Assembly: GCA_946699065.1 (NCBI GenBank)
Contig: CAMPDV010000111.1
Span: 704,913-768,912, forward strand
Source: Loxodes magnus
Taxonomy: Eukaryota; Ciliophora; Karyorelictea; Loxodida; Loxodidae
Direction: 5' to 3'
DNA: 64,000 nt
Made by a program: the position numbers and the translations under genes. The notes beneath the pieces are model-generated. The model was not told the origin of the DNA and ran no database searches. It saw only the letters and a program-made list of their open reading frames with translations. Numbering within the stretch: position 1 is the first letter of the stretch; each line of letters starts with the position of its first letter. Below, piece after piece: positions 5,975-52,805 of this stretch.

Positions 5975-7294
5975 ATGTTTTTATGATTTTCTAGTTTCTC
6001 AGATTAAAAATTGGTTAAATCTTCTTATTCATCCTGACAGCGCGAGTTATCAAGCTTCTTAACGAAAGCTATTATTTAATTTTAATGCTATTCTATTTTA
6101 GTAAATTGCTATTCTTGATTTTAAAAATCTTAAAAACTCACTTAGGTTTGCGTAACTTGATAGCAGCTTATAGGAGTTTTTGTAAGATTAGATTGATTCA
6201 ACTAATCAAAGGATTGTTATTAAACTACTGGAATTCCTTATGAAATTTCCACTGATTCACCTTCTTAAGTTGGTTATCTATTAGTGATATTTGGTACTAT
6301 TTAGTTTTTAATATTGCAAGTACTAATAATGTTGATAATGCAAACTAAAAAAGTAAGCAAGTGACCACATAGAGAAACAACTAATCCTACGTATAGTTCA
6401 CTCAATTAAGTTTTAGTATATTTGCATTTTACAAATTATCCTTAGTTATTTTCACATCCCCATTCCTTTCTTTAGTTATAGTAGCAACTTTAAGAATTTT
6501 CTTGACAAGTTTCAAAAAAAGTCTCGAAGAAAAGTATTAAAAAAAGTGTAATAGTGACAATAAAAACTGAGTAAATAGACTACAATAAAATAAGGATGCT
6601 AAGACAAATTTTTTGTTTCTTGTAGTTATATAAAGCACAGAACTAACAAGAAGAATATAAAAAACTGACCAAGCATATACTACCTAAACATGATTTAGTA
6701 GCATCACTAATAATTACAATACCTATAAATGAAATTATTGTAATAATGATGGACAGTACAAGAGAAAGCATAGTATATGCTTTATAGGATTTTTAAACTC
6801 TAATGCAAAAGAAAATAACATCTGTTGTCTCTTCCAACATTTTATTATTAATTAACTTTATTTTAAAAAATTTAGTTGTTCAACTAACAACTGAGTTAAG
6901 AGATTCTAGTACTTTAATTAGTCAATAGAACTCTAATTATTTTAAATATTTAATATATTTCTAAATTGGAACCAGCTCCCTTCAGAACTCTGACTTCAGT
7001 CGCCTTGGATTGTGTACCACTTGTGTTTGTAGATTTGACCTCCTGACGGATAAAATTAGTTACAGAATTCTCGTCTAATCTTATCCTAATATTAGTACTA
7101 TTATTTTTCTTATTATTTCCTATTCCAGTACTATTATTTAATTAATTTCAATTTCTAACATTGCCTATATTTATGTCCAGTTTGTTTGCATACAAAGCAT
7201 CTTGGTTTATTCCTAATTTATTTCTTGTCTGGACTCTTCGGTAACGTAGTAACTCCTTCTATATCCATTGGATCTTAAATTGTCCTAACTTTGA
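5975..7294 (+). CDS. Putative multi-pass membrane protein, 3' end overrun by a retroelement
   Basis: From ATG 5975 the frame gives a Cys/Trp-containing segment (CYSWFQ, VCVTWQQ, DWFNQSKDCYQTTG) and then a clear membrane span at 6247-6306 (GYLLVIFGTIQFLILQVLIM). A basic cytoplasmic region follows, then a charged helix and a further hydrophobic helix near 6840-6885. Six in-frame TGA in the first 90 codons read as Trp, which is many. An alternative frame over 5943-6276 looks equally protein-like, so the N-terminus is uncertain. No in-frame TGA occurs before the antisense element at about 6962, so the formal stop (7292-7294) lies inside foreign sequence; the native C-terminus was probably lost or shortened by that insertion. 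Confidence is good only for 6230-6950. Confidence 0.5.
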
Positions 7295-7500
7295 ATTCCT
7301 ACTACTGTTGCTACTTGCTGTTCTCTTCAAGTACAGTTGTTCTCTGCTGCAGCAATCCCATTTCCCTGAAGAAAGTGTTTTGCTCTCGATCGTAGACTTC
7401 CCAGAAACTTTCTTTCCATTCCTTGAGCTCAGTAACTTGATTTTTTAGAGCTCTATGGCATCGCAATTCAAAGAATTATCAAAGAAAAGAACCGTTTTAA
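6962..7500 (-). mobile_element. Zinc-knuckle retroelement copy A (5'-truncated)
   Basis: On the minus strand an open frame ending at TGA 6996-6998 encodes a coiled-coil segment (LKNQVTELKEWKESFWE), a short acidic linker, and a CCHC zinc knuckle of spacing CX2CX4HX4C (CFVCKQTGHKYRQC, about 7160-7205). A basic tail ends in a GGQIYKHKW motif that parallels NGVYRQKF and REGIYKKK in copies B and C. The stretch is visibly richer in GC than its surroundings. No start codon or full 5' region is seen, so the copy is probably truncated. Like the others it carries no reverse transcriptase in view. It lies antisense to, and at the 3' end of, the membrane gene at 5975. Confidence 0.65.
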
Positions 7501-9362
7501 TTTAGTTGAAAATCAATAAATAACAAAAAATTAAAAAATATTTAAATATTTTAAAATGAGAAATACATAAAATATTTGATTCTTAAATTTATGCTTATAT
7601 ATTTAAATTAAAAGTTTAATAAACTAAAATTAAATACTTTTAACTTTAATTTAATATTTATTTAAAATATTTTAAGTTTTTTATCTTAAATTTTATTATT
7701 TTATTTTCAAACATTCAGAAAAATCATTTTGGGATACTTATTTATATTTTTTATGATCGATAACTTTATTTTATTTTATTAAATCATAATAATTTTCTTC
7801 TTGTATTTTAGAAATTGAGACTTTTAGAATTTCTTTAAAACTATATAAATATATAATTCTAATAGAATATTTCAGTGAATTTTACGTAATTAAATTATTA
7901 AGTGAGATCAATGTTATGTTTGTTTCCAGATATAATAATTTATTTTAATAACCAAATAAAAATTAATTATATAAATATAAATTTATTTTTTTATCTATTT
8001 TTTTAATTTAATTTTATTAATTTTTAAGGTTAAAAATAGAAAAACCAGGAAATTTAACAATAATTATGCATATTTATCCTTATAAACATTTTTGTTAATT
8101 AAAGAACCAAAATATTAAATTCTTGAGAAAAATACCAAAATTATTTTTAATTTTTCAATTAAAATTATAAAATTAATCTTATATTTATTTTACTTGTTTT
8201 TTAACTTTTCTTTTATACAACTATATATAAAATTATTTATAATTAAGATATTTTCAATACCTTTATAATAAAAATGTTATCGAATAATTTAAAAAATTAA
8301 GGAGTTTAACATACTTAAATTTATTCTTTTAAGTATCAAAAATAAAATTAAATAATTAGTATTTATAAACTTATCTTTATATAATCTCTTTTATAACTCT
8401 AATTCTAATTACTTTCTCATTTTTTCATATTCTTTCATTTTCTGATTTTTGTGTTATAAAGTTTAACAAAACTAAAAGGTAAAAAAATGTATATCCTTAA
8501 AATTAAGTTAATAGTATAGCAAAGGATATTCATAATAAAATAATAAAAATGATAGTTAATTATTAAAGCAATAATATGCTTATGTTTAGAATGATGCTAT
8601 TTTCTTTGATTATAAGGCTAAATAAAAGCAATGCAATCTAAATTTATAAAAATAAGGAAATATATTAGCTTAAGTAGTATGATATTTTCTATGTTATTAA
8701 GACTTATTAATTATTCGTATATTTTTATTTAGCAGAATCCAGAAACTTTAGATATCTCTAATGTTCAGATGCAAAATAGTTATGCTTGAGTTATAAATCT
8801 AAATTAGATTTAATATTAAAGCTAAATGTAATTTATTTATTTATCCCCATATTTTAAACCTATGCTAGACTTTTTTTAAATAAAGAAGTTAATTGAGTTT
8901 CGCATTGAAAATACACATGAGACTCAGAATTTAAATTCTTTATACCAATATACAAAATAAATTAAGTTTAGCTTTTAAAATTAAATGAAATAGGCATGAC
9001 TAATTAAAAAAATAGCTTAATAAATAACTTAAAGACTTTAATATAATAATTCTTTAATTAACTTAGATCTTTTTAAAACTCTTCAGAAATTATAAAATTA
9101 GCTTGTAAATCTTGTAGTTATATTTTATTTATTTAATTTAGAATTAAGCATTTATAAAAAATTTGGAAATTATTAATAACATGGAATTCTAGTAAGATTA
9201 AAGGTAATTATTTTATATTCTTTATATAATCAAATATTTATGTTTATCTTCATAATTTTTGTTAATTTTACAATAAATTTAAACTAAAGTTAAGCCTAAA
9301 ATCAAATAGTGCTAAAATTATCGCCTAACCTTAGCAAAATAAATCTTAAATCTCAAACTCTA
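7501..9362. other. AT-rich intergenic stretch
   Basis: Nothing convincing. A weak plus-strand frame from about 8549 to 8900 is open but its composition is not distinguishable from chance under a one-stop code. Confidence 0.45.
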
Positions 9363-16892: not shown

Positions 16893-17360
16893 ATGGGAAA
16901 TTGTGCAAAATAAAAATATTGCTTAACTAAATAATCAATAAAACCACTTGCTGTAAAAATTAAAAAAATGTAAAATAAAAAAAACAAAAATTTTAACTTA
17001 CAACCTTTTTTGCCACTGTCTCTTAATTCAAAACCATAAAACGTATTCGAAAGAGAAAGTGAAGTGACATCAGCTTGAAAAGAATATTATAAGAATGAAG
17101 AGGATTAGCAACTCTAAGGATAGCTTTGCCAAAAGGAAATTAATTAATAAAGTTAGCAAGAACATTACTGGAAAGAAATACTAGGAAAATTAAAATATTA
17201 ATATGAGAAATTTAGAGGATATTGCTGTGGAAAATAATATTGGAAATAAAGATAAGAAGAAATGGAAAGCTAATATGAAGAAGAATATAGACAATAAGAA
17301 CATTAAAAGCATGAGTAAAACATAATTTAGATAAATATTTAATAACCAAACAATTATTTT

Positions 17361-17379
17361 ATTAGATTCTTATATCTAA
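17361..17379 (+). repeat. Target-site duplication, left copy
   Basis: ATTAGATTCTTATATCTAA, repeated exactly at 18226-18244. The uninterrupted kelch copies 2 and 3 carry the sequence once at this position, which proves it is host sequence duplicated on insertion. Confidence 0.92.
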
Positions 17380-18225
17380 ATAATAGAAAAAATGGAATAA
17401 TAGGTCCGTCTTTCAAAAAACTAAATAGGGAAAGCAAGAAAGCAAGCGACGAAAGAAGAACTAAAAAAATAAAAATAATAATAAGAATCTAGCTCTTCAC
17501 CTGAAGGAAAAATAATGATAGGTCCAGCTGAGTTAGTTAATCCACAAATTTAGAGTAACGACTTTCTTCAAGATTAAATTGAAAAAATGAAAACAATGAT
17601 CACTAAATAAGATGAAATGATATTCAATTACGGAGATCGAATTCGAGAACTTATGGATTGCATCGAAGATTAAAACAACGAATTAAAAATATTGAGAAGC
17701 TAGCTAATAAAAAGTAGTTTAGTTACAGAATAGTAATTATGATAAATGTCATAATCAAATTTTAAATAATCTCAATGCATGATTATAGAAGAAACTCCAA
17801 CCCAATTTTAGAATACAGAATAAAATAAACCTAGTTAAGAATAGGCGAGCACGGATTTAAGTAAAAGAATTGAACAACTGGAAAATAAAATATTTAAAAA
17901 GAAGAAAACTGAAAAATAAATAAAAAATTGTTGGTATTGCTACTCACGGAATCACTTACTAAGACACTGCAAAGAATGAAAGAATTTACAGATAAGAGAA
18001 GAGCAGAAAACATGAAGAGCTTTAAATAAACTATGGATTACTGAAAATGGAGTTTACAGACAAAAATTTTTAATACGCAACAAAGAAAATTAACAGTAGT
18101 AACCATCCACTTACAAAAAAGATCGGGGAAGACTTACCACGTAAAAAAATTGGTCTGAAGGTACCTGGTTGAAAGTCCAGGGATAGCAAATTTTTTTAAC
18201 ACTAAGTTCATTTATTATTATTATT
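17380..18225 (+). mobile_element. Zinc-knuckle retroelement copy B, complete
   Basis: Bounded by a 19-bp target-site duplication, with a 12-base 5' leader, a single long ORF, a hairpin, and a 3' tail of TTA/ATT triplet repeats (18211-18228). Long duplications of variable sequence plus a triplet-repeat tail are typical of LINE-type target-primed insertion (the I-factor group ends in TAA repeats). The ORF resembles LINE ORF1 or Gag, and no reverse transcriptase is present, so it would move by borrowing enzymes, like mammalian HAL1 half-LINEs (inference). Its ends are exact thanks to the empty sites in the other kelch copies. Confidence 0.85.
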
Positions 18226-18327
18226 ATTAGATTCTTATATCTAAGGAGAATACTTAAGAAAAAATAATAACAATAAAATGTTTATATATAGCCTTTCCAA
18301 GCTCCCCTTATTACTTTCTAAATATGA
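17392..18327 (+). CDS. ORF1/Gag-like coiled-coil and CCHC zinc-knuckle protein
   Basis: ATG 17392 is 12 bases inside the element. Order: Lys/Gln-rich N-terminus; a Ser-rich segment; a coiled coil (about residues 62-105, DQIEKMKTMITKQDE then ELMDCIEDQNNELKILR); a Gln/Ser linker; a second short coiled coil (LSKRIEQLENKIFKKK); then a zinc knuckle CWYCYSRNHLLRHC (17929-17970, CX2CX4HX4C) and a basic helix ending NGVYRQKFLIR. Coiled coil plus CCHC is the usual build of nucleic-acid-chaperone ORF1 or Gag proteins. In-frame TGA reads as Trp three times (QLWQM, KEWKN, KTWRAL). No stop lies within the element: the frame runs through the 3' hairpin, the triplet tail and the duplication to TGA 18325-18327 in kelch sequence. 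The native stop is therefore unclear. Confidence 0.8.
18164..18181 (+). other. 3' hairpin of retroelement copy B
   Basis: CCTGG, loop TTGAAAGT, CCAGG. Copy C has TCAGG, loop TTGAAATC, CCTGA (minus strand, 20113-20130): same loop start and length, with two compensatory pair changes in the stem. Hairpins just before a microsatellite tail are used by several LINE reverse transcriptases to recognise their RNA. Copies D and E keep TTGAAA but not the stem. Confidence 0.55.
18226..18244 (+). repeat. Target-site duplication, right copy
   Basis: Exact repeat of 17361-17379; the kelch homology continues from here. Because the element tail is itself ATT repeats, the left boundary is uncertain by two bases. 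Confidence 0.92.
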
Positions 18328-19099
18328 AATTCTATCTAACTTAATATAAATAAAGAATCTTATTTTTTTCAATTTTTAAGTTTTTTATTTCGAGCCTAAA
18401 ATTAGCAAATTTAGATACAAATAAGAATTAAAAGTTTGACTCAGTGAAGATTTTAGGGCCCTTTAAATTGAAGAATAAAGCTGCGCAATTTCAGGCGGAA
18501 ACAAAAGTATTTATGATCTTGCGATAATTAAAAAAAATGAGATATAAGTATTTAAGGGTAAATTTGGAAGATGTAATCATAATATCACGAAATTAAAAAG
18601 AATATTTTAATATTAGGAGGTTTACATAAAAGAGTCGAAAGATTTGATTTAGAAAATAAATCCTTTTCTTCTGTTTAAGATCATCCTTTAGATGTGGTAG
18701 ATTTAAGCTGTGTAATAAAAGATGATAAAATATTTTCCTTTGGAGGTAATGATTATAGTTAAAAATCAGTTTAATATAGAAATATATATGAATATCATGT
18801 TAATAAAGATATTTGGATTATGAACATATAAAACTCCAAAAATATCATGGACTTGTTCTGTTTTAGTACCAATGAAAAACATACTTATTTTCGGTAATGA
18901 TGGTTAAATGAAATAGGTGTGTTTATTCGATGAAAAGTAAGTAGTTTTTTATGTTGATGATTGTGCAAGAAAAGGAAATATACTAAACATTCCTCAGTAT
19001 TATGGGAAATTTGTTTATTTCTACAATTAAGAAAGTGAGTTATTTTCTTTTGATATTGGAAACGATAAATGGTTTAAGCTAGTGAATAAGAACATATGA

Positions 19100-20102
19100 A
19101 TTAAAATTAAATTTGATTGAATTTCATTTTATAAGCATTTTTAAATAGTATAAAAATAATAATTTAAAATATAAAATAAAATATAGAATTTTAGATAAGT
19201 TTAATAAAATAAAATATTTTTTATGCAGAATTGATTATTAAAAAAATTTATATTTTTACTTTATTAATTAAAAGAATTTTTAATTTAATTTAATAGATAT
19301 ATTAGTTTTTAGTTTTATCTTTTCTTAACTTTTTTAATAACCTACCTAATTTATCGTTGTATTTTAACTTTAAAATAAAATTTTTAATATTTCAAATTTT
19401 AATTAAATTAGACAAATGTAATTGAAACTACTAAAAGATTTTATGAATTTTCAGAATAAGACTGGAAATGGAATAATAATTAGCATCACTTTAATCCTTA
19501 AAACAGTGATGAACCTTATTGATAGGTGGAATAACTATAATTAATTATAATATTATATATATTTATTATTATTTGCTTTATTTAATGTAAAAATTATGAT
19601 TATTTTATCAAATCTTTTAATTACATAAATTTCTTATAAAAATAAGGTATATTAAAATTGATATTTTGTCTACCTTTATTTTTTATATATTTAGAATAAT
19701 ATAATATTAATAAACTATCTTAATAGTCTCTTAATTAAAAAAATACAAAATAGCAATATTTTTAAATGAAATCTATTTAATTTAACAAGTTTACAATAAG
19801 ATATTTGTTTATTCCTTTATAATTTCATTATTAAAGAATAAAACTATTATATTTTACTTTATATTTGTAAATACTACATTATTATTTAATTTTAGTTATT
19901 ATTTAGTTAATTTATTGGCTAATTTAATTTTTTCATTCATAAAATAGAAAAATTAAATATTATTTATAAATATAATTAAAAAATTAATATATATCTTAAA
20001 ATAATATAGTATATTATTATACCTTAGCTTTTCGTAGTATTATTGTTGGATAAATATTTAAATATTATTTTAATATATTTAAAATTATTAATAAAAATAA
20101 TA
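19100..20102. other. AT-rich spacer
   Basis: No gene seen between kelch copy 1 and retroelement copy C. Confidence 0.45.
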
Positions 20103-20945
20103 TAAACCTTCTTCAGGGATTTCAACCTGATTAAGGCGGCCCATTAAGTTTTACGTGGCAGGGTTCCACGATCTTTTTTGTTAGGAAGGTTAACCAACTT
20201 GCTCTCTCTAAGTTTTGCTATTAAAATACTTTTTTTTTGTAAATTCCTTCTCTTGTTATTTAAAGTCTTGAGATCTGCCTTAGCGTTTTTTTCTTCTCTT
20301 ATTTGAAGGTTTAAAAGTCTTTACAGTTTCTAATTAAGTGTTATGTTGATATGCAATATCAACATCTTTTTCTGACTACTTGCTTTTTTTGTCTCTTGAT
20401 AAGGATTCTTTCTATTTTCTCTAATTTTTAAGAAATTCCTTTATTTTTATCCTCTTAAGTTGAAGAAATATTTTATTATTAGATTTGAGTAGTGGCTACT
20501 AGTATTCAAGGTTTTCTATCTGCATTGATACTACTTAACTAGATGCTTGCTACGACTGTAATCATATTTATTCTCTTGTTATGTGCTTATTTGTGACAAG
20601 TAAAGTCTTTAGTTGGTCGAGTTCTTTGTTAAGCACTTCATACTAAGTTAAAATGGATTTTGATTACTCTGAAAGGTTAAAGATTGTCCCTTCTTACTTA
20701 GATATTTTGAGTAATAGATTTCCAACTTAATGAGATTCGTTTATTTTCTATTCTCCTACAAGGCTTTTCCATTCATATGAGGAGGACGAATCCTCGCTTT
20801 CATTGGGTTTCTCCTAATTACGAATCTATTGGTAAGTAAATCTTTTTGCTTTCATTAGCTCGCTTTTTGTAATCTTAGATCCTGTCATTCTGATTTATAT
20901 GTTTTTCCCGGGTTAGAAAAATTTTGTTCTCATTTAAAATAATGA
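20103..20945 (-). mobile_element. Zinc-knuckle retroelement copy C (frameshifted)
   Basis: Minus-strand relative of copy B. From an ATG near 20933 the frame gives a Lys/Arg-rich start, a Ser-rich acidic patch (ESEDSSSSYEW) and a coiled-coil region (LTQYEVLNKELDQLKTLL). The zinc knuckle CWYCISTQHLIRNC (20323-20364), followed by REGIYKKK, is one frame away; the shift falls in or near an A7 run. The Trp of the knuckle is TGA here (20359-20361) and TGG in copy B (17932-17934). The 3' part shares the block AAAAAAGATCG..GGA...CCACGTAAAA with copy B and ends in a hairpin. It stands tail-out beside copy D, in the spacer between the two inverted HMG-kelch blocks. Confidence 0.75.
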
Positions 20946-21232
20946 TTTAAAGCATAAAATATCTAAAAATTTAAATTATTAAAACCAACTCTAATTTCTA
21001 CTTAATTATTTATCAAAATGACTTATTATAGATTTATAGCTGCTCAATAAAATTATATTAAACATCTTTTCATTTTTTAATTTTTGCTTTTATTTAATTT
21101 TTATATTTAATAAATTAATGACAAATAAAATTTAAATATTGTTAACCAATTTAAATTTATTATATTATTCTATAATAAAATTTAATAGAAACTATTTTTA
21201 AATAAATAAAGTAAAATTAAACAAATTATAAA

Positions 21233-22190
21233 ATGGAACGATTCAAAAGAGGTTTCTATACCACCTCCAAAAAGATGGGAGAGAAAATCTGAATCTAATC
21301 TTGGATATTCTTCTTTCCCTTAATCCTAATCTTTATCTTTATCTTAATAATCTGGAGAGGAACAGAAACTAGCTCAGAAGATAGCACATGCAACAACTCC
21401 AACTTCATAAGAGAAATCAAGGAAGTTAATGAAGTTTATTCTTCTTAAGAGGCCTCGAAGTTTAATCCTTCTAGCCAGATGAGTATGGAATAGCTCTTTA
21501 AAGTGGTACTGAACCTCCAGGAAGAAGTCAGAAAGCTGAAAAAGAAAAATGACAAACTAATGGAGAATCTGAACAAACAAGAGGAAAATCGAATCAAGAT
21601 TCATGTCCCAGAAAAGAGATTAAATGTTTTCTTAGGCATTTCATAAGATCAAAGCAACTAATTTTAAAGCTAGCAATAAAAACAGCCAGAAATTGGAAAA
21701 AGGATAGAGAAAATAGAAGAAAGCAAGCAAAATCTACAACTTCAAATGGAGATAAGAGGGCATAAAAGCGATCCAATGCTGATTGAAGAAGAAATTATCA
21801 GAAAACCTTAAAAGGAAATAGAGGTAAATAAAGATTAGAAAAAAATGTTTTTGTTGTGGAAGCTTGTGACATTTATATCGGAAATGTAAGAAATTCTAGC
21901 AAAAAAAAAACTGAATTATTGGATTAAAAAAAAGAAAGAATCAAGAAGAAGCAAGATTAAACCGAATGCATTACAGTCCAAGAGGAGAAATATTTAAAAT
22001 CAAGAAAGATGCGATAAGACAAGAGCAGGAAAGGAGAGGAAAATAAACTTGGAAAATTTCGAATTTCTAACCTCGCTAAAATTGGTGTTGCCAAACATTT
22101 TTTATTTAACAGCAGGGAGTTGAAATGCTGTCTGGTTGAAATACCTCAAATTTTAAAACTTAAATTTATAAATTATTATTATAAAGTAAA
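21233..22190 (+). mobile_element. Zinc-knuckle retroelement copy D (frameshifted)
   Basis: Plus-strand element whose protein must be assembled from several frames. A Pro/Ser/Gln-rich N-terminus (PPPKRWERKSESNLGYSSF) is followed, in another frame, by a coiled coil (VVLNLQEEVRKLKKKNDKL). The knuckle CFCCGSLWHLYRKC (21846-21887, its Trp a TGA at 21867-21869) lies in a third relation, directly after an A7 run at 21839-21845. Near its end are a TTGAAA motif and a short ATTATTATT tract. It is a sister of copy E: N-terminal and coiled-coil parts of the two align closely. No duplication was identified at the ends, so boundaries are approximate. Confidence 0.7.
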
Positions 22191-22289
22191 ATAAAAAATA
22201 AGCTATTAATTTAACATATTTTATATTTAGTTAATAAAATAAATATTTGTTTTATATGTTTTTTAAAATAATAATTAAATTATAATAAT

Positions 22290-23576
22290 TCAAATTTACA
22301 TTTAGATTTTATTTCTTTTTTTAAGATTAAGCCATTTTACGCATCTAATATCAAAAGAAAATAGCTCACTTTCCTAGTTATAGAAATAAACAAACTTTCC
22401 ATAATACTAAGGATTGCTTAGTATATTTCCTTTCTTTTCACAGTCTTTAGCAAATAATACAACTTGCTTTTCATCGAATAAGCATACATACTTCATTTTG
22501 TCTTTATTATCAAAAATAAGTATGTTTTTCATTGGTACTAAAGCAGAACAAGTCCATGATATTGTCGGAGTTTTATTTTAGTTCATAATCCAAATATCTT
22601 TATTAATATGATATTCATATATATTTCTATATTAATCTGATTTTGAGCCATAATCATTACCTCCAAAGGAAAATAATTTAGCATCTTTTGCTATGCAACT
22701 TAAACCTACCACTCTTAAAGGGTGACTTTTAACAGCAGAAAAGGATTTGCTATCTAAATCAAATCTTTCGACACTTCCATGTAATCCTCCTAATATGAAA
22801 ATACTTCTTTTAAATTTCGCAATACTATGATTACATCTTCCATATTTACCTTAAAATGCTTATAACTCATTTTTTGTAATTATTGCAAGATCATAGCAAT
22901 TACTTCCGCCTGATACTACACAACTATATTCTCCAATTTAAAGCGCTCTGAAAGTATTATTATGGTAAATTTTTAAATCATATTTTTATCAAAATTTATC
23001 TATTTTAGGTTCGTAATATAAAATTTCTTAATCGACAAATATTAAATTTTTTACCCATTTTAAGTTAGATAGAATTTCATATTTAGAAAGTAATAAGGGG
23101 AGCTTGGAAAGGCTAGAAACGTTTTATTGCTATTATTTATTCTTAAGAATATTTCTTAGATATAAGAATCTAATAATATATTCATTATACTATTTAATTT
23201 TTATCTAAACCATGCTTTACTTTTGCTTTTAACTAATTTTTTATATATATTCTTCTTCATACAAGCTTTCCAATTCTTCTTATCCTTATTTCCAGGATAT
23301 TTTTTATTAGTGACAACCGCGAAATTCTTCATAATTATGTTTTAATTTTTGTGTATGTTCTTTTTAGTAATTTTCTAGTTAATTTTCTTAATTAATTTCA
23401 TTTTAGCAATGCTACTTTTAAAATTTATAATCAGTTTCTTTATTATAATAGGTTTTTACAGTATTATTTTCTTTTCTTTCACTAGCAAATAAATTATCTA
23501 ACTTTGAAATTGAAGGTTTTGGTTTTATTGATTATTTAACTTAAAATTAAGATTTTTACTTTGCACAATTTCCCAT
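22290..23576 (-). CDS. Kelch-repeat protein, intact copy 2
   Basis: 428 residues from ATG 23574-23576 to TGA 22290-22292. The N-terminus MGNCAKQK fits N-myristoylation at Gly2 with possible palmitoylation at Cys4, suggesting membrane attachment. Residues about 10-150 are Gln/Lys/Glu-rich and coiled-coil-like, then a conserved RFLYLRNILK block. The C-terminal 250 residues carry kelch-type repeats with paired glycines and following hydrophobic strands: CVVSGGSNCYDLAII, SIFILGGLHGSVERFDL, KLFSFGGNDYG, ending in QYYGKFVYFYNQESELF. Only three or so blades are recognisable, fewer than a full propeller. One TGA is Trp (KIDKFWQKYD). The gene is convergent in an inverted copy of the block at 15.5-19.1 kb; its HMG neighbour upstream (24577) is broken. 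Confidence 0.85.
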
Positions 23577-32026: not shown

Positions 32027-35000
32027 GAGATTCTTAAAGCTGTATCTATTATCATTTTAATACTCTCAAATTATGCTTAACCTAATTCATTTAAAAAGAA
32101 AGTCTGAAAGGATTTACATACCTGACCACTATTTATTCTATTCTTTGAAAATAAGTTATAAAATGTCATAAGAGTTATTTCAAAAGAATACTACGGAGTT
32201 AAATACTAATTATGAAAAATAAAATTATACAACTCGAAAAATTACTAGCTTGGAGATCTATAGACATAAGGCAACGAAGATAATCAATGAGAAGAAAAAC
32301 TATGAAAGCATGAATGGTTACCCGCTCTTTAAAACTAAGGTCAAATTGAATGAATAAAAAATAAAATTGCTATCTATGAATCGGATAGCGAAGATGAGTA
32401 AGAAGTAATTTAACTTAGAAAAAAGTTAATACCAGGCTCTTATGAACAAAAATTAGAAAAAGATGAAAAAGTAAGTGATGAATAGATCAAGCAAGGATTA
32501 GCAGATAATGAGAATTGATTCTATCCATATTTGATTCTCTGCATTATTTTTATTGCTTTGCTGAATTTAACAAATTTAGTCTACGAAACAGCCTAAATGA
32601 ATAAAGTTTTCCAAGATACTTTTAGATATAAAAAGCTAGATTAATTATTCCTTAACGAGTTGGTACAGAAAATTCCTGATCTTATTCTAAATCCGCTTTA
32701 TAATCCTTATGTACGCAGTTCTTAGATTTATCAGTGAGAGTCTAATGTGTTCTTAGGCATGAGGTTTTCACTTAAGCGCTCAAAAGTTGAAAAAATGACA
32801 GACAAAAATTATGCAAAAATTCTAAAGCATAAGAGAACGGATTGTGACTTCATAAACCCCTATTATAAAAATACCTATGAAAGCACAGAGTCATTTTCAC
32901 AGAAATAATGATGGAGTGCTCTAAGCTTGGATTAAGTTTAACTGTAAGATTTAGCAAATAGGTAAAATGAGACTTACGTGAAACAAAATGAAATAAACTA
33001 TAACTAATAGAAAACCTTTACATCCAGCAAAACCTAAACAAACTTACAACATTATATTGATCAAGTATCATATAATAACGATTTCAAGACTTATAAATAC
33101 AAAGAAGAGAATGGATTCTTAAATTCGGGAGCTTATACTTAATATTTCGCTTACAATGAAACAATGGAAAGGGTAATGTATTAGTACGCTTAAATGATAT
33201 AGTCTGGATGATTCGAAGTAACTGTTTTTGGATCTTTAGTAATCGAGTTCTTCTTTTATAATGCAAATTACAGAAATTTAGAATATTATTGCATCATTGC
33301 TTAGATAAAAAGTCCCTACACTGTGAAAGTAGAATAATATAACTAAGGAATTTACATAGAATTACTAGACTAAGATAATAAAGATTCAAAGACAGCCCTT
33401 TATCTAGGTATAGTTTTAGTGATTTTATCCTTTTTCTACTTTCTTAGAATTATTAAAGCAGCTAATGTCAATATTCGCTTTTATTATAGCAATGGGCAGT
33501 GCTAACTGAGCGTAAGATATCTGCTTTAGTTAATAGTCTTTATTATGATAGTGATTAGCATGGCTTTATGAATTGATATTCAGCTTGTTAAGGCAAACGA
33601 ATTAGAACTTCCAATCGAAAACGAAGATGATTTTAATGATTACGTTTCCCTAGCGATAGAATATCGTTATTTTGTAAGAATCGCTTCGTTGACAATAATT
33701 TCTATGTCAATAGAAATATTGGAAATCCTTACAAATAAGCTAGTAATTTTTGCAGTGTTTCTAGATTTGCTGATTAAAGCTAAAAATGAGATTTTTATGT
33801 TTTTTATAGTTTGATTTGTAAGCATTATGTCTTATGCTTTCGTTGGTGTTCTTTTATTTTATTTCGACACAGCTTACTAAGAGTTTTGGTCATCTTTATT
33901 TATGCTATTTAAGTTTTCAATTAAGCATCATCCTTATGATGATACCAATTTCGAAAACAGTTGGCTAGAGTATCAATTTTACAAGTAATGCTGATCAAAT
34001 GGAAATTGGATTATTCTGATTTCTTTCATTATTGTTCAAACCTTTTTCCTCAATTCCTTGATAACAGCTTAAGTATTATTCTATTTTGAAGTAATCAAGC
34101 ATTAAACTATATAAGTAACTCAAGCTTAGTCCTAAATACGCAAGCAGAAGAACCAGCAAACTAGAAGGCTTTGGATTAATTTGATTCTTTTAAGATAGAA
34201 TAGAAATAAAGACCTTGAAAAGGATATTTTAGAGTATGATTGGCTATCTAAGCAAATTTAACTGCTAACCAAAATAAAAGCTAAAGAGCATTGTTTATAA
34301 AGCTTCGATTCTTAATTGATAAGTTTTGATAAGGATAGAGATCAGTTTAATAAAGAAAGCAAATAAGAAGAAAAGAAAACTTATAGTAATAGTAAAAAGC
34401 TATAGAAGCAAAAAAATATTTAGCATTTCTGTGATTTCTCAATGCAAAAATAGTATCAAGACTGAGATAAAATTATTCTTGAGCTATATCGAAAAGCTTA
34501 GAGGCCAGCTATTGATGCTAAAATGGATTAGAAGAAATGGCCTAAATATAATTTTAGCAAGCATAATGAAATAATAAACTATTTTGATTTTACTTCTAAC
34601 ACAAGAGAAGTAATGCTGAGATGTATGCTAAAAAGACATATATTTCTTGAATATTCTATAGCTCATCAAAAAGAACTTCCTTGGTATTACAGTTTTATCC
34701 AGAATCTGTCTGAAATTCAACTTTTTCAAATATGCTTAAAAACTAAAGCGAAATCTTTGAGTACACTAGAAGAGCAGAAAGCTTAAATCTAAGATCAAAT
34801 AAAAAAGAACAGTCAGCAATGAGAAGAAAATATTCAAAAGGCTATGGAAAAGAAAAAAAGACCAAACTAGGAATGGAAATATGTCTGTAAGCTAATTCTA
34901 TATATTATCTACATCCTAATATTCTTTTCAACACTTAGCAAGTTTTTAAATTTAGAGTCTAAGTATCAATACCTGCAATTCTCAAATGAATTTCTATAAA

Positions 35001-38000
35001 AAGCAAAGTTTTAAAACTAAGAGTTCTATCCAGGAAAAAATTTAACTTTCTAAGACATAAAATTTGACTTTATGATATAAGACTTTTTACAGCAGAGCAT
35101 TTACTAATAGTTTTAAAGAAATAGCACGCTTCCTTAAGTATGACCTTAATTTTATGGAACTCCTATTTTTAGAGTAACGACAAGATTTACTAAAGTTCTA
35201 GAAAACAAATCTAAATTTTCCAAAAACTTGTGTCAAACCAGAAAAGAAACTGGAATAGTATCTCCTTATGATAAGAATTCAAATGAAGTTACTGAAACAA
35301 TTTGGAAAGAAAGAAATTTCATTTACAAGAAAAGTGGAGATAATATAACCGCATTCAGAGCAGGAGGATATGTAACTTTACTGTCTCAAGAAACACTACG
35401 ACATCTATAAGCAAACGAGAAGTATATAGTTGATAATATATTCGATTATCAAAAGAATTGCATGGTCTTTGACTTCATTTCCTTTTATAATCACAGCAGC
35501 AACATTAACTATTAGAGTTTATACTGATGCAATTAGCAAAGCGGGAGAATAACATCAAGTGCCTGAAACTCCTCAGTATAGGTAATAAAATTTAGTGAAC
35601 TTCCTCATGAAATAGTAGCTGGAATAGCTTTCATTTTTATATTTGGTTTCTGCTTTCTGCTTTCTGCTTTCTGCTTTTTGATTGAAGAAATGATGAAATA
35701 TTATAAGCAGTACTGTTTAATCTCCAAGAAAGGAAAAAGAAAGTAAAATGTTAAGCTATACTTAAAGAATTTACAACTTTAAGCTAAATTTAATCAGAGC
35801 AAGAGTTACCAGAAATAATTAGAGAATAGTAAAGGATGAAAGAAAAATTCCAAATAAATATTTAGTTTTACATGTGTGGTATTGAAATTTATTTTCGATC
35901 GTTTATAATGAATGATCATAAGCTTTTTAACCTATTCAACTAAGTCTATTTGAAGCTTGATTGATATTATGCACGTAATTTTATTCTTATGTTCGTTCGG
36001 TCTTTTAATTCAACTTACTTCCAACACAAGTTTAGAAAAAGACTGGTCAATTTATTACGTAGAAGCTGATTCAGAAATAGGTAATTTTTATGACTTTGCT
36101 AAGTCATAGCAAGCAGTAGCAAAGATGCTTTCATTTTATGGATTCTTCTTAATCCTGAAATTCATAAAATACTTCAATTTTTATAAAAAGTTTGCCATTG
36201 TTAAAATATTCATTCAAAGAGCACTAGATGATATCCAATCTACCCTGCTTCTACTCCTTATTTTGCTAGTAGGATTTACACTTATGACTCATAATGCTTT
36301 CGGGCTTTTATACTATAAGTTTGACCAAGAGTTATACTCATTTATCTTCTTTATAGAAATACTTAATGGAGTGATTCCAATTCATGAGATAATAGAAGTA
36401 GACTATAGCTTATCAGTTATTTTCATTCTGCTCTTCATTTTCATCTTCTACTTTACATTTAGAAGCTTATTTACAGCTAACATTAACGCTCATTACTAGA
36501 ACTACAAGCATTATGTTGATAATTACTTTCCAGGAGAAAGCAACTGAATGTAAAGTCTGCTGAAGCTAATAAAGAAAATAAGCTTAAAAGTGTTCTCTAA
36601 GATAAAAAATCTATTTAGTTAGCTTTAAAAAAAGCAAGAAAGTGACCTTTCTAAGTAGTAAAGTAAGAAGTAACTTAGCTCTCAAAGATAGAAAGCAACT
36701 AACCCTTCTTCTGAAAAGTTAAAAAGTATCATTTAACAATAAACTTAGTGAGAATCTCCTGAAATAGACTAAAAGAATTTATTTGAACTTGATAAAATGA
36801 TGAGACCTTACATTAAACTAAACTAACTATAATATGAAGCTTAGATCTAGAAATAAAATGATTAAAATGAGAAATCAAAACTAGAAGAATAAACGAATAT
36901 CAAGTTGCAAGTTTATCAAGACTAAATTAGATCAACTTTCTGATTAGGAAAACTTGAAGAAATGCTAGAGAAGAAAAATAACTTTGCCCTATTCTCCTTA
37001 GCAGGCTAATTGGAAGAAGAATAAATATGCATAAAAATAAAGCAAACTATTTATAACTTCAATAGAAATGCTAACTTCGATTTGTTCTCATAATTAGATG
37101 AGTAGCAAGAGGAATGACTAAAGTTTCCAGATTAATGGCAAGAATTAACCTTTAGAAAAGCGAATTCAGTTTTGAAGCTTAAGTTTTGGGAGGCTTATTA
37201 TGTTCAGAGAATTTAAGATTAAAAAGTTCAAATAAGAGATGCTAATTCAGGGTGGGATAAATTACAGTCACTATGTAGAAACAAAATTACTAAAGAGAAC
37301 TAACTTTTGAGCATGGATAGTAAGCTTTTTTGTTTGTGGAATATTCTAAGCCTGCAAGAAAAATTATCTTTATGATGTGGAGAATATAATAACCAAAACT
37401 AAATGCTAGATTAAATTCTCACTTTCCAGTAAATGAATCAAATCTGGCAGAAAACACCCTTTGATAGCAAAAGCCTGTATAAGAATTTCTCAAAGCTTAG
37501 AGTTGTAGTAAGCGAGGGCTATTCAAACTATACAATAGAATAGATTTCTAAAATGGAGTAGATATTCTATGAAAAAGAAGAAACTGAAAGTGATGCTTTA
37601 TCAAAATAGAGGAGAATCTTCTAAAAACTAAAAACTAATTTGAAATATCTTTTAATAAGCTATATCATCAAAGGAGATAATTAAGATGAAATCACCAGAA
37701 AACTATTCATCCAGAATAGCTAAAATCTCCCTGTTAAAGAAAGAATTTCATTTATACTTGAGGAAAAAAATAATAAACTGGGAGCAATCTTATAGCAAAG
37801 CTTTGAAGAGAAACTAATATTTTGAATAGCTTTAAATAAAACCTAGAAAATTTAGCTTATTCTTCACTGCTAGGATTCATTAGAAAGTGAAATAATGGAA
37901 ATGATAATGGATTGGGAATCAGATTTTTCATTATGAAACATAGAAAAGAACAATATAACTTTAATTACACAAATAAACCAAGAAACATACAATAAAAATA

Positions 38001-44034: not shown

Positions 44035-45378
44035 TCAGATTTTCTTATTCTCTAGTTTAAACCATTTGTCGTGTTCAATATCAAAAGAAAATAGCTCTCT
44101 TTCTTAATTGTAGAAATAAATAAATTTTCCATAATACTAAGGAATATTTAGAATATTTCCTTTTCTTGCACAGTCTTCAGCAAACGGAATTACTTGCTTT
44201 TGGTCAAATAAGAGCACCTACTTCATTTAGCCTTTATTACCGAAAATAAATATGCTTTCCTTTGGTACTAAAACAGAGCATGTTTACGATACTGTTGGAA
44301 TTTAATTTTAGTTCATAATCCAACTATTTTTATTGATGTCATATTCATATATTGTTCTACAATAATCTTATTATTTTCTATAATCAGTACCTCCAAAGGA
44401 AAATATTATATCATCTTTTACTGCACAACTTAAACCTTGTACACCTAAAGGATGACATTAAGCAGAAGAAAAGGATTTATTATCTAAATCAAATATTTCG
44501 ACACTACTATGAAATCCTCCTAATACAAAAATATTTCTTTTGTAATTTACAATACTATGATTACATCTTCCATAACTACCCTTAAATACTTATATCTCAT
44601 TTTTTTTAATTACCGCAAGATCATAAATACTTCTACTTCCACCTGAAATTACGCAACTATTTTCTCCAATTTAAAGGGCTCTGAAATCATCACCTAGTCA
44701 AACTTTTAATTCTTATTTGTATCTAATTTTGTTAATTTTAGGTTAGTAATAAAAAATATCATAATCGTAAAAAATAAGATTCTTTATTTCTATTAAGTTA
44801 GGTAAGATTTCATATTTAGAAAGTAATAAGGGAATTTTGGAAAGACTAGATACTTTTTATTATTGCTATTTTTTCTTTAGAATGCTTCTTAGATATAAGA
44901 ATCTAATAAAATAGGCATTAGGCTATTGAACATTTATCTTAAAAGTATTTTACTCATGCTTTTAATGTTCTTATTATCTATACTCTTCTTCATATTTTTG
45001 TTCTATTTCTTCTTATCTTTATTTCCATTTCATTTTTCCACAGGAGCATCCACAAAATTCTTCGTAATTATTTTTTAATTTTCCTATAATTTCTTTCCAG
45101 TATTGTTCCTGCTATTTTTCTTATTACATTTCCAGTATGCAAAGTTACCCTTAAAATTTTTAATCACTTTCGTTTTTCTAATAATCTTTTCAAGCTGATG
45201 ATTCTTCTCTTTCTCTCCCAAAAAAGTTATCTGGACTTTAATTTGGAGAATTTGGCTATTAAGATTATTAGTTAAGAAAGAATTCAGGTTGACTTAATAT
45301 ATTGAGAGGTTGTGAAGGTAAATTTTATATTTGGCTGCTTATTTAAGAAGCAAGATTATGATTTGCCGAATTTTTCAT
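44035..45378 (-). CDS. Kelch-repeat protein, intact copy 3
   Basis: 447 residues from ATG 45376-45378 to TGA 44035-44037, colinear with copies 1 and 2. The N-terminus is MKNSANHN, so the Gly2/Cys4 lipidation signal of the other copies is absent. An insert rich in Ser/Pro/Gln follows, then a Glu/Lys coiled-coil-like region containing a Cys cluster (FCGCSCGKMKWKQRQEE). Next come the uninterrupted RFLYLRSILKK block (the empty site of retroelement B) and the kelch repeats (CVISGGSRSIYDLAVI, NIFVLGGFHSSVEIFDL, IIFSFGGTDY). TGA is Trp in SSAWKDY (as in copy 1) and KVWLGDD. Its upstream HMG neighbour (46493) is broken. Confidence 0.87.
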
Positions 45379-46925: not shown

Positions 46926-47165
46926 TTTTATATAGTAAGCTTAAAGGTTAACTTTGATATAGAGTTATTCCTTTTTTATAACTTAATAGAAAAATAGAAA
47001 ACTTAAAATTTAAATATATTAAATTTTTAATTAAATTCTAAATATAAAGCAAAAATAGAAAAACTTAATAATTAGTTTAAAATACTTTATGAAATTAGAT
47101 ATTCTAAAAAATATTAAGCTAACTAAACTAAATAAAATTAAAATAATTATTTAAAATTCTAAACA

Positions 47166-48152
47166 AATGTAAAATAGAAAGATTCATAATAAATTTCTAC
47201 ACCACCTTCAAAAAGTTGGAGAGGAAACCTGAATCCAATCTTGGATAGTCTTCTTTCCCTCAACCCTAACCTTTTTTTAATCCCAATAACCTGGAGAGAA
47301 ATAGAAACAAGCTCAGAAGACAACTCATGCAATAACTCCAACTTAAAAAAGAATATAAGGAAGTAGATGAAGTCTGCTCTTTTTTAGGAGGTCTCGGAAT
47401 TCAATCCTTCTAGCCAGATATGTATGGAATAGCTCATTAAAGTGGTACTGACTCTCCAGGAAGAGGTCAGAAAACAAAAAAAGGACAATGGCAAACTAAT
47501 GGAGAATTTGAGCAAACAAGAGGAAATCGAATCAAGACTTATGTTTCAGGAGAGAGATCTAAGCGCTTTCTGGAACATATCTCAGAGTCAGAACAGCTAA
47601 TCCCAGAATCAAGATTAAAAATACAGAGAAATTGACGATAAATAAGCACAGCTAGAAGAAAGTCAGCAATAATCAGTAAAAATCGCAAAAGTAAATTGAA
47701 TCAAGAGTCTAAAAATGAGATAGGTGAGATCGAAGAAATTAAATTTGACAAGCCTTTATACAAGCGAGAAGTGAAATCCTGCTACTATGTGGCTCAAGAG
47801 AAAACTTGTGAAGGAAGTATAGGAAATTCCTAAATTTCAAACAGAGTTACTGCCAAAAGAAAAACAACAGTAGGAAAAAAGGAAGAGGTAGCAACAGCTC
47901 AAGCAAAGAAGGAATAGAGAACAGTTATGGATTAACGTTCTTGGGAATATATACAAGAAAAAATGAAATTAGTAATGGAAGAGAAATTAGAGATTTTAAG
48001 AACAAGCAAGACAGGACAGTGGGCGGAGTATGAATATTTAACTTTAGTTTTCCAGAGCAATCTGGAGGCAGGCTAGAAACAGTTTGAAATACCTACAAGA
48101 AGGTCAAACACTTTTATTCATAATAATAATAATTATTATTATATCAATGCTA
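47166..48152 (+). mobile_element. Zinc-knuckle retroelement copy E (decayed)
   Basis: Aligns with copy D from its Pro/Ser-rich start (CCACCTTCAAAAAGTTGG) through the coiled coil (VVLTLQEEVRKQKKDNGKL). The knuckle region is degenerate: an extra two bases break the C-x-x-C spacing (near 47785) and the His and last Cys are lost. The 3' end has TTTGAAATACC and then a triplet-repeat tail (ATAATAATAATAATTATTATTATA, 48118-48145). A defunct copy. No duplication identified. Confidence 0.65.
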
Positions 48153-49429: not shown

Positions 49430-50509
49430 TAAAAATAATAAAAAGAACTTGAGAAAAACTTAGAAAGCTACTAGACAAATAAACTTATTCTGTTCAATTT
49501 AAATAAACTATTTTAAAAAATAAAAATATAGAAAATAAGTTAAAACATTAAAGCAAATAGGTAAATATATTGTTAAAAGCAAAAGCAAGCTAAAAATAAA
49601 TAAATCTTTTCTTTACTTCTAAAAAAGACTAAATCAATAAAATTTTATTTATTTTCAAGTCTACTTATTGCATACAATCTAAAATAGAACACTTTAGAAA
49701 AAAAATTTACTAAAAGCATTGCTCTAGCAAGGAGCAAGTATGATCTTAAAATGTTAAATCTTGTAAAATAGTTAGTTTAGATTCTACTCAATCTAAAAAT
49801 GAAGAATTTTGAATTAACATTAATAATTTATTTAATATATAATTTCTATTGAAAAGATTCTAACTTATTAATATGGAATTTAAATCTACCTTCCATGTTT
49901 ATTCGATTTAACGAAATTTAAGAGTTTATTTATCAAAGATTATATCTTAGTTGTAATATATAGTATCAAGTAAGTTGTTATAAGAATAAAATCGTTAACT
50001 TGATTACACAATTTTCATTATTGCTATAAATACAGTTACTACTAAGCAAAAGAATTTCAAGATTTAAATCAAAATTCTTCACAACTACATAAAAGAAAAA
50101 GTTGATTAAATATTTAAGAGGTCATGTCATGAAAAGATCAAAAAAAAGTAAAAATAAAACTGAAATTTTAAATTTAAAGAGAAAACGATGAAAAGGGTTT
50201 AATTATAATCTTCAACGAAGTCTCCGATTTAACCACAAAACAGTGCTGAATCAAAAAAGAAGTAAAAATGAAGAAATTTATTAAGAATCTGAGAGAAAAA
50301 CTTAAAATTGAGGAAAAATAAGAAAAATAAATAAATTAAAAAAAATCCTTTTAAATAAAAAAACAACAAAGATAAAAAGCAATAAAAAAAGTTTAAATTG
50401 AATAAATAAAAAAAGAAAGTAGAACAATAAAAATATTTAAAAAAAACAATACAAATACAGAAGAGAAAAAAAAGATACAAAGTAAAATAATTTAATAAAA
50501 AAATTGTCT
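49430..50509. other. Spacer with a polypurine tract
   Basis: From about 50130 to 50490 the plus strand is almost entirely A and G. An ATG at 50129 opens a Lys/Arg/Asn-rich frame of about 110 codons, but composition alone explains it; I do not call a gene. Confidence 0.35.
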
Positions 50510-52168
50510 TCATTTATTAGCAAAGAACTAGCAGAAATACCATCTTCCCGTTGAATCGTCTTTTACTCCACTCACTGCCATGTAATGATTGTCTGATAAA
50601 ATGTTCTTTCTATGTCCGTCAGAATTTATCCACTAATCCACTGCTTTCGCTCCTGGATTTGTTGCGTCATAATTATAAGCTACGTTTTCGGCACAACTTG
50701 ACCAGTTTGGAATTGAGTTACAACGTTCACTAAATCCGTCATGAGAGATTGTTCCAGCACTTATTTAGTAACTATTATGTCCTACACAAAGCTCGAATAA
50801 TAAATTATCCCACTCCTAATTATCTTTTCCTTATGAAACTCTAAACTTGTTAGATTCCAAGAAAGCTGTCCATGAAACATCATCTACATTGGAAGGTTTT
50901 CCATTACTTTATTGTTCAGTAGTTTGCTAAAGCTAAGTAGTTTGCTAAGTGGTTTGCTAAGTAGTTTGTTATTCATATTATGGATTGGAAAAAGCTGCTA
51001 CTTTTTACACCCATTCATCGAAACAGCTGGCTCCTTTATAAGTAACATCACTACGTCCATTTCTATTTGCTTCTGTTCCATCCTTATTAATCAAAATCAA
51101 AGCGGGAATTCCACTAACTCCATATCTACTGTAGACTGAATTTTGTCCATAAGGTTGACGAGCAAAAGACATTCCGAGTGAATAAGAATCATAAGCACCT
51201 TATGAATATTCATAAAGACTTGCTACATTTTCATATTTGAAACAACCTCCTGAGTTCACTTAGTTATAGAATTATTCCAGTTGAGGAGTAAAGGATTTAC
51301 AAGATCCACACCAAGAAGCTGTAAAGTAAATAGTAAGGGCTTCTACAAACTAAAAGTTATCATAAGTCCACTAGCTATATCCTTTCTTGTTAAATGTGCT
51401 TCCAATTATTTTAGTAACAGGTTCTCTATAATAAATTGGTTTAGCATTGCAATTTTAATCAGTGCTTTCATCAGGAGTGCTTTCATCAGGAGTAGTTTCA
51501 TCAGTTTCATCAGGAGTATCATTATTTTGGTTAGCTAAGAATTAATCTACCTCTGCTTTCAACTGTTGGTATTGAGTATTTAAATTAGCGAGTTAGTTTT
51601 CTTGTTTGGTGTTAATGGACTTTTTGGTTTTTTCATACTGTTTGTTCAATTACTCTTTCTTTTTATTGTACTCATTCTATAGTTTGGTTAGTTTCTAATT
51701 GGTTTATTTTCTTTAGTCTTTAAGTTGCGTTTTCTAGTTGTTTTTACTATCGATAGCTTACTAGATTTCTTTCTTCTTATTGTTGTCTTTAGTGCTTTTC
51801 TTCTATTCCTTTAGGGCTGCTACATCAGTATCAATCTACTAGATTTAAGAGTCAAGAGCAGCTATCTCACTTTACAATTGTTGCAACTGAGGATCGTACT
51901 GCTAACTCAAAGCTGTAAGATTTGCTTAGTAATCATTATCTAGATTCTGTAGACTCTATGCTGCTTACTCTGTAGTTGCTTCTAAGTCATTAAGCAGTTA
52001 GTATACTTAATTTTCCAAATCTGAACCATCTGGCAAGGCATCAAGAAGGTCATTCAATTATGATTGCAAATCTGATTGATCCATCTATAAGAGTTATATT
52101 TGGGAATAAGACTAGACTAAATGGAAGGTAAGAAGAATAGATAGCAATAGAGATAAAGGTAACTTCAT
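50510..52168 (-). CDS. Secreted coiled-coil/thioredoxin/CAP fusion protein, copy 1
   Basis: 552 residues, ATG 52166-52168 to TGA 50510-50512. A hydrophobic signal peptide (MKLPLSLLLSILLTFHLVQS) is followed by about 200 residues of Gln/Lys-rich coiled coil and an acidic Thr/Pro linker (DETDETTPDESTPDE). Next is a thioredoxin-like domain with active site WCGSCK (Trp286, Cys287, Cys290) and GVSGIPALILINKDG, the loop with the cis-Pro. A Gln/Thr linker leads to a C-terminal CAP/SCP domain (about 430-552) with HDGFSERC, SCAENVAYNY and DGHRKNIL motifs. CAP domains are secreted and may bind sterols or act at the surface; the redox domain would act on disulfides in a vacuole or outside the cell (inference). 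All Trp are TGG, with no in-frame TGA in 552 codons, which suggests strong expression. The QTTQ linker is two residues longer than in copies 2 and 3. Confidence 0.93.
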
Positions 52169-52805
52169 AGATGTTTGTAAAATGGAGCAGCTAATTTATA
52201 GTGAGGGAGTTACTATTTAGTTATCGAAAATAACTAAAGGAGTTATTTTAAACTTATAACTCTTTTTTAAGCACTATAAAGACTTAAATAGACTTATAAT
52301 AATCATTATATAGTATAAAGTTATTGAGTATCTTTATAAAGATATGCCTCGTTCTTATTAGTTTCTTTTATCAAGAGATATAAAGTCATTATTTATAGTT
52401 ATATATGTTCAAAGATCTCAAGCCTTTAATTAATTTATTAAAGCTTATTCTTCTATGCTAGCATTTCTCTTCACATTTTTACCTAAATAACTGTGTAAAT
52501 AACATGTCTATAAATGAGACTTTATCATTTACAACTTAATAGCCTCTATCTTACAATTTATAATGTATCAGTTCTTATCTATTAATAAGTTCTTATAAAG
52601 CCTCTATCATCTAACTCAATATCTTTCAGTTCTATTTTCAATCGAGATCTTAGCAAATATCAAGTTTACAGTTATGCTTATATACTTTGTATACTTATAT
52701 ACTTATATACTTTTATGCTTATATACTTTTATGCTTATATACTTTATATACTTATATGCTTTGTATATCAATAAATAGACTTATAGATTAATAAAAAAAT
52801 TGTCT
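52169..52805 (-). promoter_or_regulatory. CAP-gene upstream spacer (unit 1)
   Basis: Within 110 bases of the start lie two inverted repeats: TTAGTTAT CGAAA ATAACTAA (52217-52237) and GAGTTAT...ATAACTC just beyond. The same block recurs before genes 2 and 3 and as an orphan at 26122, so it is a candidate control element or 5' leader hairpin. The rest is AT-rich and ends in a minisatellite. Confidence 0.5.
52673..52768. repeat. Minisatellite of TATACTTATATGCTT-type units
   Basis: Irregular tandem 8-15 base motifs (TATACTT, TATGCTT) in the spacer between CAP genes 1 and 2; repeated identically at 54963-55058. Confidence 0.75.

Follow-up and report, generated by a model that had tools for sequence, protein, structure and literature searches.

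E1, a probable gag-only non-LTR retroelement in the genome of the karyorelict ciliate Loxodes magnus

A short element with a single open reading frame (ORF) interrupts a gene of Loxodes magnus within a stretch of 64,000 nucleotides (contig CAMPDV010000111.1, positions 704,913–768,912, forward strand), referred to here as the window. The locus raises the question of what kind of element this is and how it moves, the original prediction having left the choice between a half-LINE of the HAL1 type and a Gag-only parasite. Our analysis indicates that the element, which we call E1, is very probably a non-autonomous retroelement of the non-LTR kind that encodes a gag/ORF1-type protein and nothing else. 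Its position and limits, together with those of the target-site duplications (TSDs) and the empty sites, are as follows.

17380–18225, plus strand: E1, an ORF-only retroelement of 844–846 bp, its ends placed from 30 copies and from the empty sites.
17359–17379, plus strand: 5' TSD, TTATTAGATTCTTATATCTAA, of which the last 15 bp lie outside the overlap with the tail.
17380–17386, plus strand: seven extra nucleotides at the 5' junction of E1, identified by comparison of the 30 copies.
18212–18229, plus strand: (TTA)n tail of E1, whose end overlaps the 3' TSD.
18224–18244, plus strand: 3' TSD, the second copy of TTATTAGATTCTTATATCTAA.
44889–44913, minus strand: empty site in a kelch paralog (collinear alignment, single TSD copy).
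23150–23178, minus strand: empty site in a second kelch paralog (collinear alignment, single TSD copy).

Many of the other E1 copies among the 30 compared start with A(n)TGG, and a T-run near the end of the element is 2 nt shorter in the window copy than in 29 of 29 others. The TSD of the window copy is no longer than 21 bp and, with the part that runs into the (TTA)n tail discounted, no shorter than 15 bp, a range that includes the 19 bp originally predicted; the length predicted for the element (846 bp) and its triplet-repeat 3' tail also agree with what was measured. A kelch motif (PF13964, 4e-07) lies just 3' of E1, at 18571–18900 in the window, the insertion being in a kelch gene. Two paralogs of this gene at ~22.2–23.5 kb and 43.9–45.3 kb, both on the minus strand of the window, are without E1. 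When the flanks of E1 are joined and one TSD is removed, the sequence is collinear with both paralogs, each of which has one copy of the TSD, with a flank identity of 76–83%; both are thus empty sites, as had been proposed.

The HMG-box and kelch genes form a pair that is present in three segmental duplicates (15.4–19.3, 21.2–25.0 and 43.8–47.7 kb) with 69–89% identity, and E1 and two further RT-less elements described below, E3 and E4, lie beside or inside these segments. The window contains other duplications. A 2.3-kb unit with a thioredoxin-domain gene (in the first copy, the one scanned) is repeated three times in tandem at 50492–56892 with 99.5–99.8% identity, and the regions 33663–37923 and 59573–63734 are inverted paralogs, 64–67% identical.

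E1 is a multicopy family. Searched in full, the genome (705,730,643 bases; 705.7 Mb) gave 2714 first-look candidates, and the 40 that were scored are 96–100% identical to E1 and nearly full length, so the element is not an ordinary single-copy gene. The first 30 coding bases of E1, counted from the ATG, matched at 170 places with up to three mismatches and a 42-base stretch of its 3' end at 115, the reversed patterns giving 0 matches in both cases. These two patterns miss diverged copies; the full-length copies at loci L076, L078 and L079, for instance, have no paired 5' match among those listed. Among the matches listed (100 of each) at least 59 pairs of 5' and 3' patterns were formed, 58 of them 708–776 bp apart and one 440 bp apart, and 41 of the 100 listed 5' places and 41 of the 100 listed 3' places were left single. 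Nine of the 30 E1 loci that were fetched share one insertion, and on contigs C379, C362, C607 and C1127 E1 copies occur roughly regularly, every ~18–45 kb, in an array-like manner. Because of the shared insertion and the regular spacing on C379 and C362, we attribute part of the copy number to amplification of single insertions. Once 13 duplicates are dropped, the 30 loci represent 17 independent insertions, with a mean pairwise divergence of 2.4% (136 pairs), a value biased low because the copies fetched were the best-scoring ones.

All 17 independent insertions are flanked by exact repeats of 11–21 bp, with 14 bp or more in 12 of the 17 (counted from the element boundaries). Pairing the flanks of different insertions (272 pairs) gave repeats of at most 13 bp, and of 11 bp or more in 10 pairs, which rules out chance as the source of the duplications. 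The 3' end and (TTA)n tail are common to the 30 loci (17 insertions), and many of the duplications start with TTA or TA (a count with no background comparison), as would be expected of pairing between tail and target. Two insertions lack the 5' part of the element, one starting from element position 433 (L077; TSD of 14–17 bp, by eye) and the other from position 550 (L074; TSD of 15 bp, by eye), the latter insertion being also present in L075 and L080. Variable TSDs, 5' truncation accompanied by a TSD and a constant 3' end with its tail all point to target-primed reverse transcription as the route by which E1 moves.

The short and uniform length of E1 might also suggest a DNA transposon or a MITE-like element. 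The self-comparison of the window, which gave only the TSD and simple-sequence matches, shows neither terminal inverted repeats nor long direct repeats at the ends of E1; with TSDs that vary from 11 to 21 bp, 5' truncation and a tail on one side only, this origin is scarcely credible. The same comparison, in the lack of long terminal repeats, rules out a Gag-only element of the LTR type.

The single ORF of E1 and the features of its product are listed below.

17392–18190, plus strand: E1 ORF under code 27, beginning MEQQVRLSKNQIGKARKQ..., with three TGA read as W; similarity to L064 extends to about codon 242.
17578–17724, plus strand: predicted coiled coil, residues 63–111, with I I I I I L L at the a-positions.
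17929–17970, plus strand: CX2CX4HX4C zinc knuckle, CWYCYSRNHLLRHC, recognised from the sequence.
18022–18066, plus strand: conserved C-terminal motif, LNKLWITENGVYRQK, near-identical in the relative at L064/L070.

The coiled coil and CCHC knuckle of the original prediction are both present in one ORF, with two corrections: the ORF starts at 17392, and the frame is open only if TAA and TAG are read as Q and TGA as W. The in-frame TGAs are residues 117, 196 and 208; the first two are kept in 29 of 29 other E1 copies and the third in 28 of 29. A conserved Trp, residue 215, is TGG in E1 and TGA in L064, and since the two codons exchange at this position, TGA is a sense codon here. The coiled coil has seven I/L at a spacing of seven residues, which was equalled in 48 of 20,000 shuffles, and an AlphaFold model of low confidence (mean pLDDT 43) has a long helix at residues 53–107. 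Pfam does not recognise the knuckle, the spacing of which is the same in E2, the L064 relative, E3, E5, E7 and E8; the C-terminal motif recurs in E3, E5, E7 and E8 in the form G-x-[IVLF]-[YF]-[KR]-x-[KR].

No reverse transcriptase (RT) or endonuclease (EN) was matched in the ORF by Pfam, and against Pfam and the sequences of the PDB nothing was better than E 0.47 (one PDB match, which we take as chance). The copies, the TSDs and the lack of an RT match together support the view that E1 is a retroelement, mobile and present in many copies, whose ORF is of the coiled-coil/CCHC type and which has no RT. Two other origins of such a protein have to be weighed at this point. The hallmarks of target priming would equally fit a host gene that encodes a coiled-coil CCHC protein and has given rise to processed retrocopies. 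The lack of any better database match, a tail of (TTA)n rather than poly(A) in all 30 loci (17 insertions), the many copies at 96–97% identity and the amplification of other families besides E1 make this origin improbable. Alternatively, the copies might be 5'-truncated LINEs and the knuckle that of the C-terminus of ORF2, and ORF2 does end in a Cys/His motif, for example CLCGQDFDETDHIFDC, in two of the LINEs examined here, LINE-D and LINE-X. The Cys/His spacing differs from that of E1, however, the copies of E1 have a common 5' end with a start codon, there is the same want of an RT match in the ORF, and true truncations of E1 itself exist; we regard this second origin as highly improbable.

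Codon comparisons give signs of purifying selection on the ORF when it is set against one relative, which is present at two duplicated loci. The dN/dS of E1 is 0.15 against L064 (137 codons) and 0.18 against L070 (159 codons), with dS saturated at 2.4–2.6, and 0.79 against each when read one frame off; L064 and L070 are 98.6% identical duplicated loci and therefore count as one comparison, not two. Against L067, a more broken relative, the ratio is 0.31–0.36. Values of 0.42–0.53 against E2 and E7, at ~1.5–2 synonymous changes per site, are given little weight, since some off-frame values are no higher. Among the E1 copies, several of which have frameshifts, unique substitutions have an N/S of 2.20 compared with 2.65 expected from the mutation spectrum (1.5–8.0 in bins of 40 codons), weak selection as for mostly dead copies. 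A SINE without a coding ORF is set aside on account of these signs of selection.

The end of the ORF lies close to a feature of the 3' end:

18164–18181, plus strand: 3' hairpin CCTGG-TTGAAAGT-CCAGG, with similar hairpins in E2 and L067 and, by sequence, in L064.

The 3' end of E1 is predicted to fold no better than shuffled sequences do (z −0.08). In L064, as read from its sequence, the UGA that ends the ORF is in the hairpin loop, and the same holds for E2 (hairpin TCAGG-TTGAAATC-CCTGA at ~20100–20130, minus strand), where the hairpin was folded and the frame of the UGA taken from the alignment. Thus, in E2 and L064 the same few bases may have two roles, in termination and in recognition by the RT. 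A similar TTGAAAT stretch in E3 and E4 also contains a UGA, but no hairpin of this kind is predicted around it. In E1 itself the TGA of the hairpin is out of frame, and there is no in-frame TGA from residue 208 to the 3' end. An alignment of four E1-type copies (E1, L005, L017 and L020), which did not include L008, L064 and L070, places one extra nucleotide near codon 246 of these copies relative to E2 and L067; 1-nt deletions near this site are found in three of 29 other copies (L011, L024 and L030). The lack of an in-frame stop suggests that in this E1 subfamily the product may be unneeded, or needed only from other copies. The family to which these copies belong has nonetheless been amplified. 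In Loxodes magnus (code 27) UGA is described as either Trp or stop (PMC11441545).

E1 does not stand alone. The window holds four further candidates, E2–E5, and E6–E9 were found at neighbouring loci.

20060–20895, minus strand: E2, a diverged relative of E1 (67% over 232 bp including the knuckle); ends approximate.
21218–22180, plus strand: E3, RT-less and of the same class, with a broken frame and a 12-bp TSD, ATAAAGTAAAAT, at 21206–21217 and 22181–22192.
47138–48130, plus strand: E4, degenerate, 78% identical to E3 over 548 bp; ends approximate, no clear TSD.
6900–7362, minus strand: E5, partial, with the signature PMDIE-CCHC-GGQIYKHKW; ends approximate, no clear TSD.

No TSD was found for E2. 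E7 is inserted in a copy of LINE-A, a LINE family described below, with a 15-bp TSD, and four LINE-A copies without it provide the empty sites; its family gave 885 search candidates, and the 39 scored besides its own place span the query from 1–9 to 875–881 of 891 at 95–99% identity, some of them within amplified segments. The E9 family gave 2547 candidates, of which 40 were scored at 96–100%, starting at 1–8 of 921 and ending at 861–921 in AT-rich sequence. The E9 insertion has a tRNA-Ser(GCT) gene (L061, 1889–1971) ~130 bp away on its 3' side. The signature of the class is M.IE, the knuckle and G-x-[IVLF]-[YF]-[KR]-x-[KR], identified by eye for most elements; a strict pattern of knuckle and C-terminus occurs at four distinct places (E3, E5, E7 and E8) and in none of five shuffles, and it misses E1 and E2. 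The E1 and E7 proteins are 26% identical over 202 codons. The tie of E9 to the class is looser because its motifs are seen by eye and only across a frame change, with a knuckle one residue shorter. E1, E2, E3/E4, E5, E7, E8 and E9 are members of a wider RT-less class that has one protein architecture in common, and common descent of the whole E-class appears likely on these motifs.

If E1 has no enzymes of its own, which LINE serves it? The genome does contain LINEs with RT and EN; the RVT_1 profile gave 3403 candidates (150 scored) and Exo_endo_phos_2 gave 2075 (150 scored). In its text on repeats, the description of the genome names two LINE families and many unclassified repeats (PMC11441545). 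We examined five LINE families. LINE-A, read from a single copy of 10 kb and from 30 loci of 3.8 kb each, is by estimate ~5.5 kb long and has an ORF1 with a knuckle, an ORF2, a 3' hairpin and a (TTTA)n tail; the tails of LINE-C and LINE-X are (TTTA)n and (TTTAA)n. The 3' ends of LINE-B, C, D and X are those of one copy each, D and X being judged by eye.

On the strict half-LINE reading, E1 would be a recent or old internal deletion of a LINE that has this ORF1 and is, or once was, in the genome, and would use the 3' end of that LINE. The tail, TSDs and truncations of E1 are indeed LINE-like, and two similarities between RT-less elements and LINEs point the same way. A 69-bp stretch near the 5' end of E3 (window 21225–21293) has 78% identity to the region upstream of the LINE-A ORF1 (L061, minus strand, 8442–8509), possibly a 5' module shared by an RT-less element and a LINE. 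The 3' region of E6 resembles the 3' end of LINE-C over 35 nt (1 of 300 shuffles), a lead only, as it is one of 30 comparisons; the next best, E2 with LINE-C (4 of 300 shuffles), sits inside the element and not at its end. The LINE-A 3' hairpin was rejected as the source of the E9 3' end: the two are alike by eye, the similarity is not above that of shuffles, and E9 continues past the hairpin. Against the half-LINE reading, an E-class profile made from E1, E5, E7 and E8 (E2 and E9 left out, E6 taken in part) aligned with the ORF1s of LINE-A, B and C, that of LINE-B being partial, in the knuckle region alone (hhalign Prob 1.8, E 0.028). Pfam gave only weak matches on the LINE-A and LINE-C ORF1s. 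The search for a LINE that shares the E1 3' end, proposed with the original prediction, brought none to light in the five families: the E1-type end, a CTGGTTGA..CCAG hairpin followed by (TTA)n, is absent from all five 3' ends (LINE-A, B, C, D and X). When the window and the loci preceding L074–L081 were scanned for hairpins whose loop is TTGAAA, the hits were E1-type elements, E2 and a single unrelated site, with no LINE 3' end. We do not class E1 as a half-LINE because both homology of ORF1 and sharing of the 3' end were lacking in the LINEs seen, and the strict form of this reading seems to us rather unlikely; of the two kinds first proposed, the gag-only element fits better. A partner LINE may well exist, since the five families were drawn from among thousands of RT/EN candidates.

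A gag-only non-LTR retroelement is of a known kind. To our knowledge such elements are few (HAL1 and HeT-A) and come mainly from animals. HAL1 of mammals is non-autonomous, encodes ORF1p alone and is described as derived from L1, having arisen several times independently (PMC5753468). E1 resembles it in its LINE-type movement and in having an ORF1-type protein with neither RT nor EN, and differs from it in that its ORF is similar to three LINE ORF1s of this genome at the knuckle alone. HAL1 also differs from E1, which is ~0.85 kb long with (TTA)n and not poly(A), in both size and tail. HeT-A has a Gag with a knuckle and is far longer than E1. At the telomeres of Drosophila this Gag-encoding non-LTR element without RT is thought to borrow its RT and, according to the same account, transposes to chromosome ends with no need for nicking (PMC5537684). 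E1, in contrast, inserts internally and with TSDs.

The Gag-only LTR retrotransposons of plants (TR-GAG) are moved in trans and have LTRs, which E1 lacks. SINEs such as UnaSINE are moved by LINEs (UnaL2) with stringent recognition of the 3' end, and E1 is likewise short, without RT and endowed with a simple-repeat tail beside a 3' hairpin; unlike them it has a protein product, in which there are signs of purifying selection. The LINE families reported for L. magnus, described as having consensus lengths of 5–6 kb with RT and EN, neither of which E1 has, could supply the enzymes; they are not matched here to LINE-A to LINE-X. E1 works like HAL1 or HeT-A and is apparently a separate lineage.

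We picture the movement of E1 as follows. Its RNA would consist almost entirely of the ORF, preceded by a leader of a few nucleotides and followed by a 3' end of ~60–70 nt comprising a small hairpin and the (UUA)n tail. The product of the ORF, with its coiled coil, knuckle and C-terminal motif, would most likely multimerise and coat its own RNA in cis. The element being too short to encode the enzymes, they would be supplied in trans, a LINE-encoded endonuclease/reverse transcriptase nicking the target. The (UUA)n end would then pair with TTA-containing DNA and the cDNA be primed there. The outcome would be duplications of 11–21 bp and occasional 5' truncations, both of which are seen in the copies.

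What is new in E1 is its own protein architecture, the existence of several amplified families and the setting in an ambiguous genetic code. The original prediction knew of no such family from karyorelictids, and in the literature searched we too found no description of an ORF1-only or gag-only family from karyorelicts. In the main text of the Loxodes paper the term ORF1 has 0 occurrences, and its LINE passages contain no ORF1-only family (PMC11441545).

We tentatively entertain the possibility, short of favouring it, that the E-class is an old, self-perpetuating RT-less lineage with a Gag-like protein kept by selection, and not a set of recent half-LINEs, its families having drifted apart until their DNA is no longer recognisably alike, taken on different 3' ends and tails and been amplified repeatedly; the order of its protein would then be coiled coil, M.IE, CCHC and G.[IL]Y[KR].K. 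Different E families may borrow the enzymes of different LINEs, much as satellites depend on helper viruses.

The L. magnus genome, in which three or more RT-less families with the same type of architecture (E1, E7 and E9 among them) have been amplified, lends itself to testing whether LINEs can have a long-lived parasite and what an ORF1 protein does on its own. The macronuclear (MAC) assembly of L. magnus is given as 706 Mbp, with 366 Mbp of unclassified repeats (PMC11441545), and the E-class may account for part of the latter. Elements whose stop codon is read from its context, UGA being either Trp or stop, would also provide a handle on how this code works.
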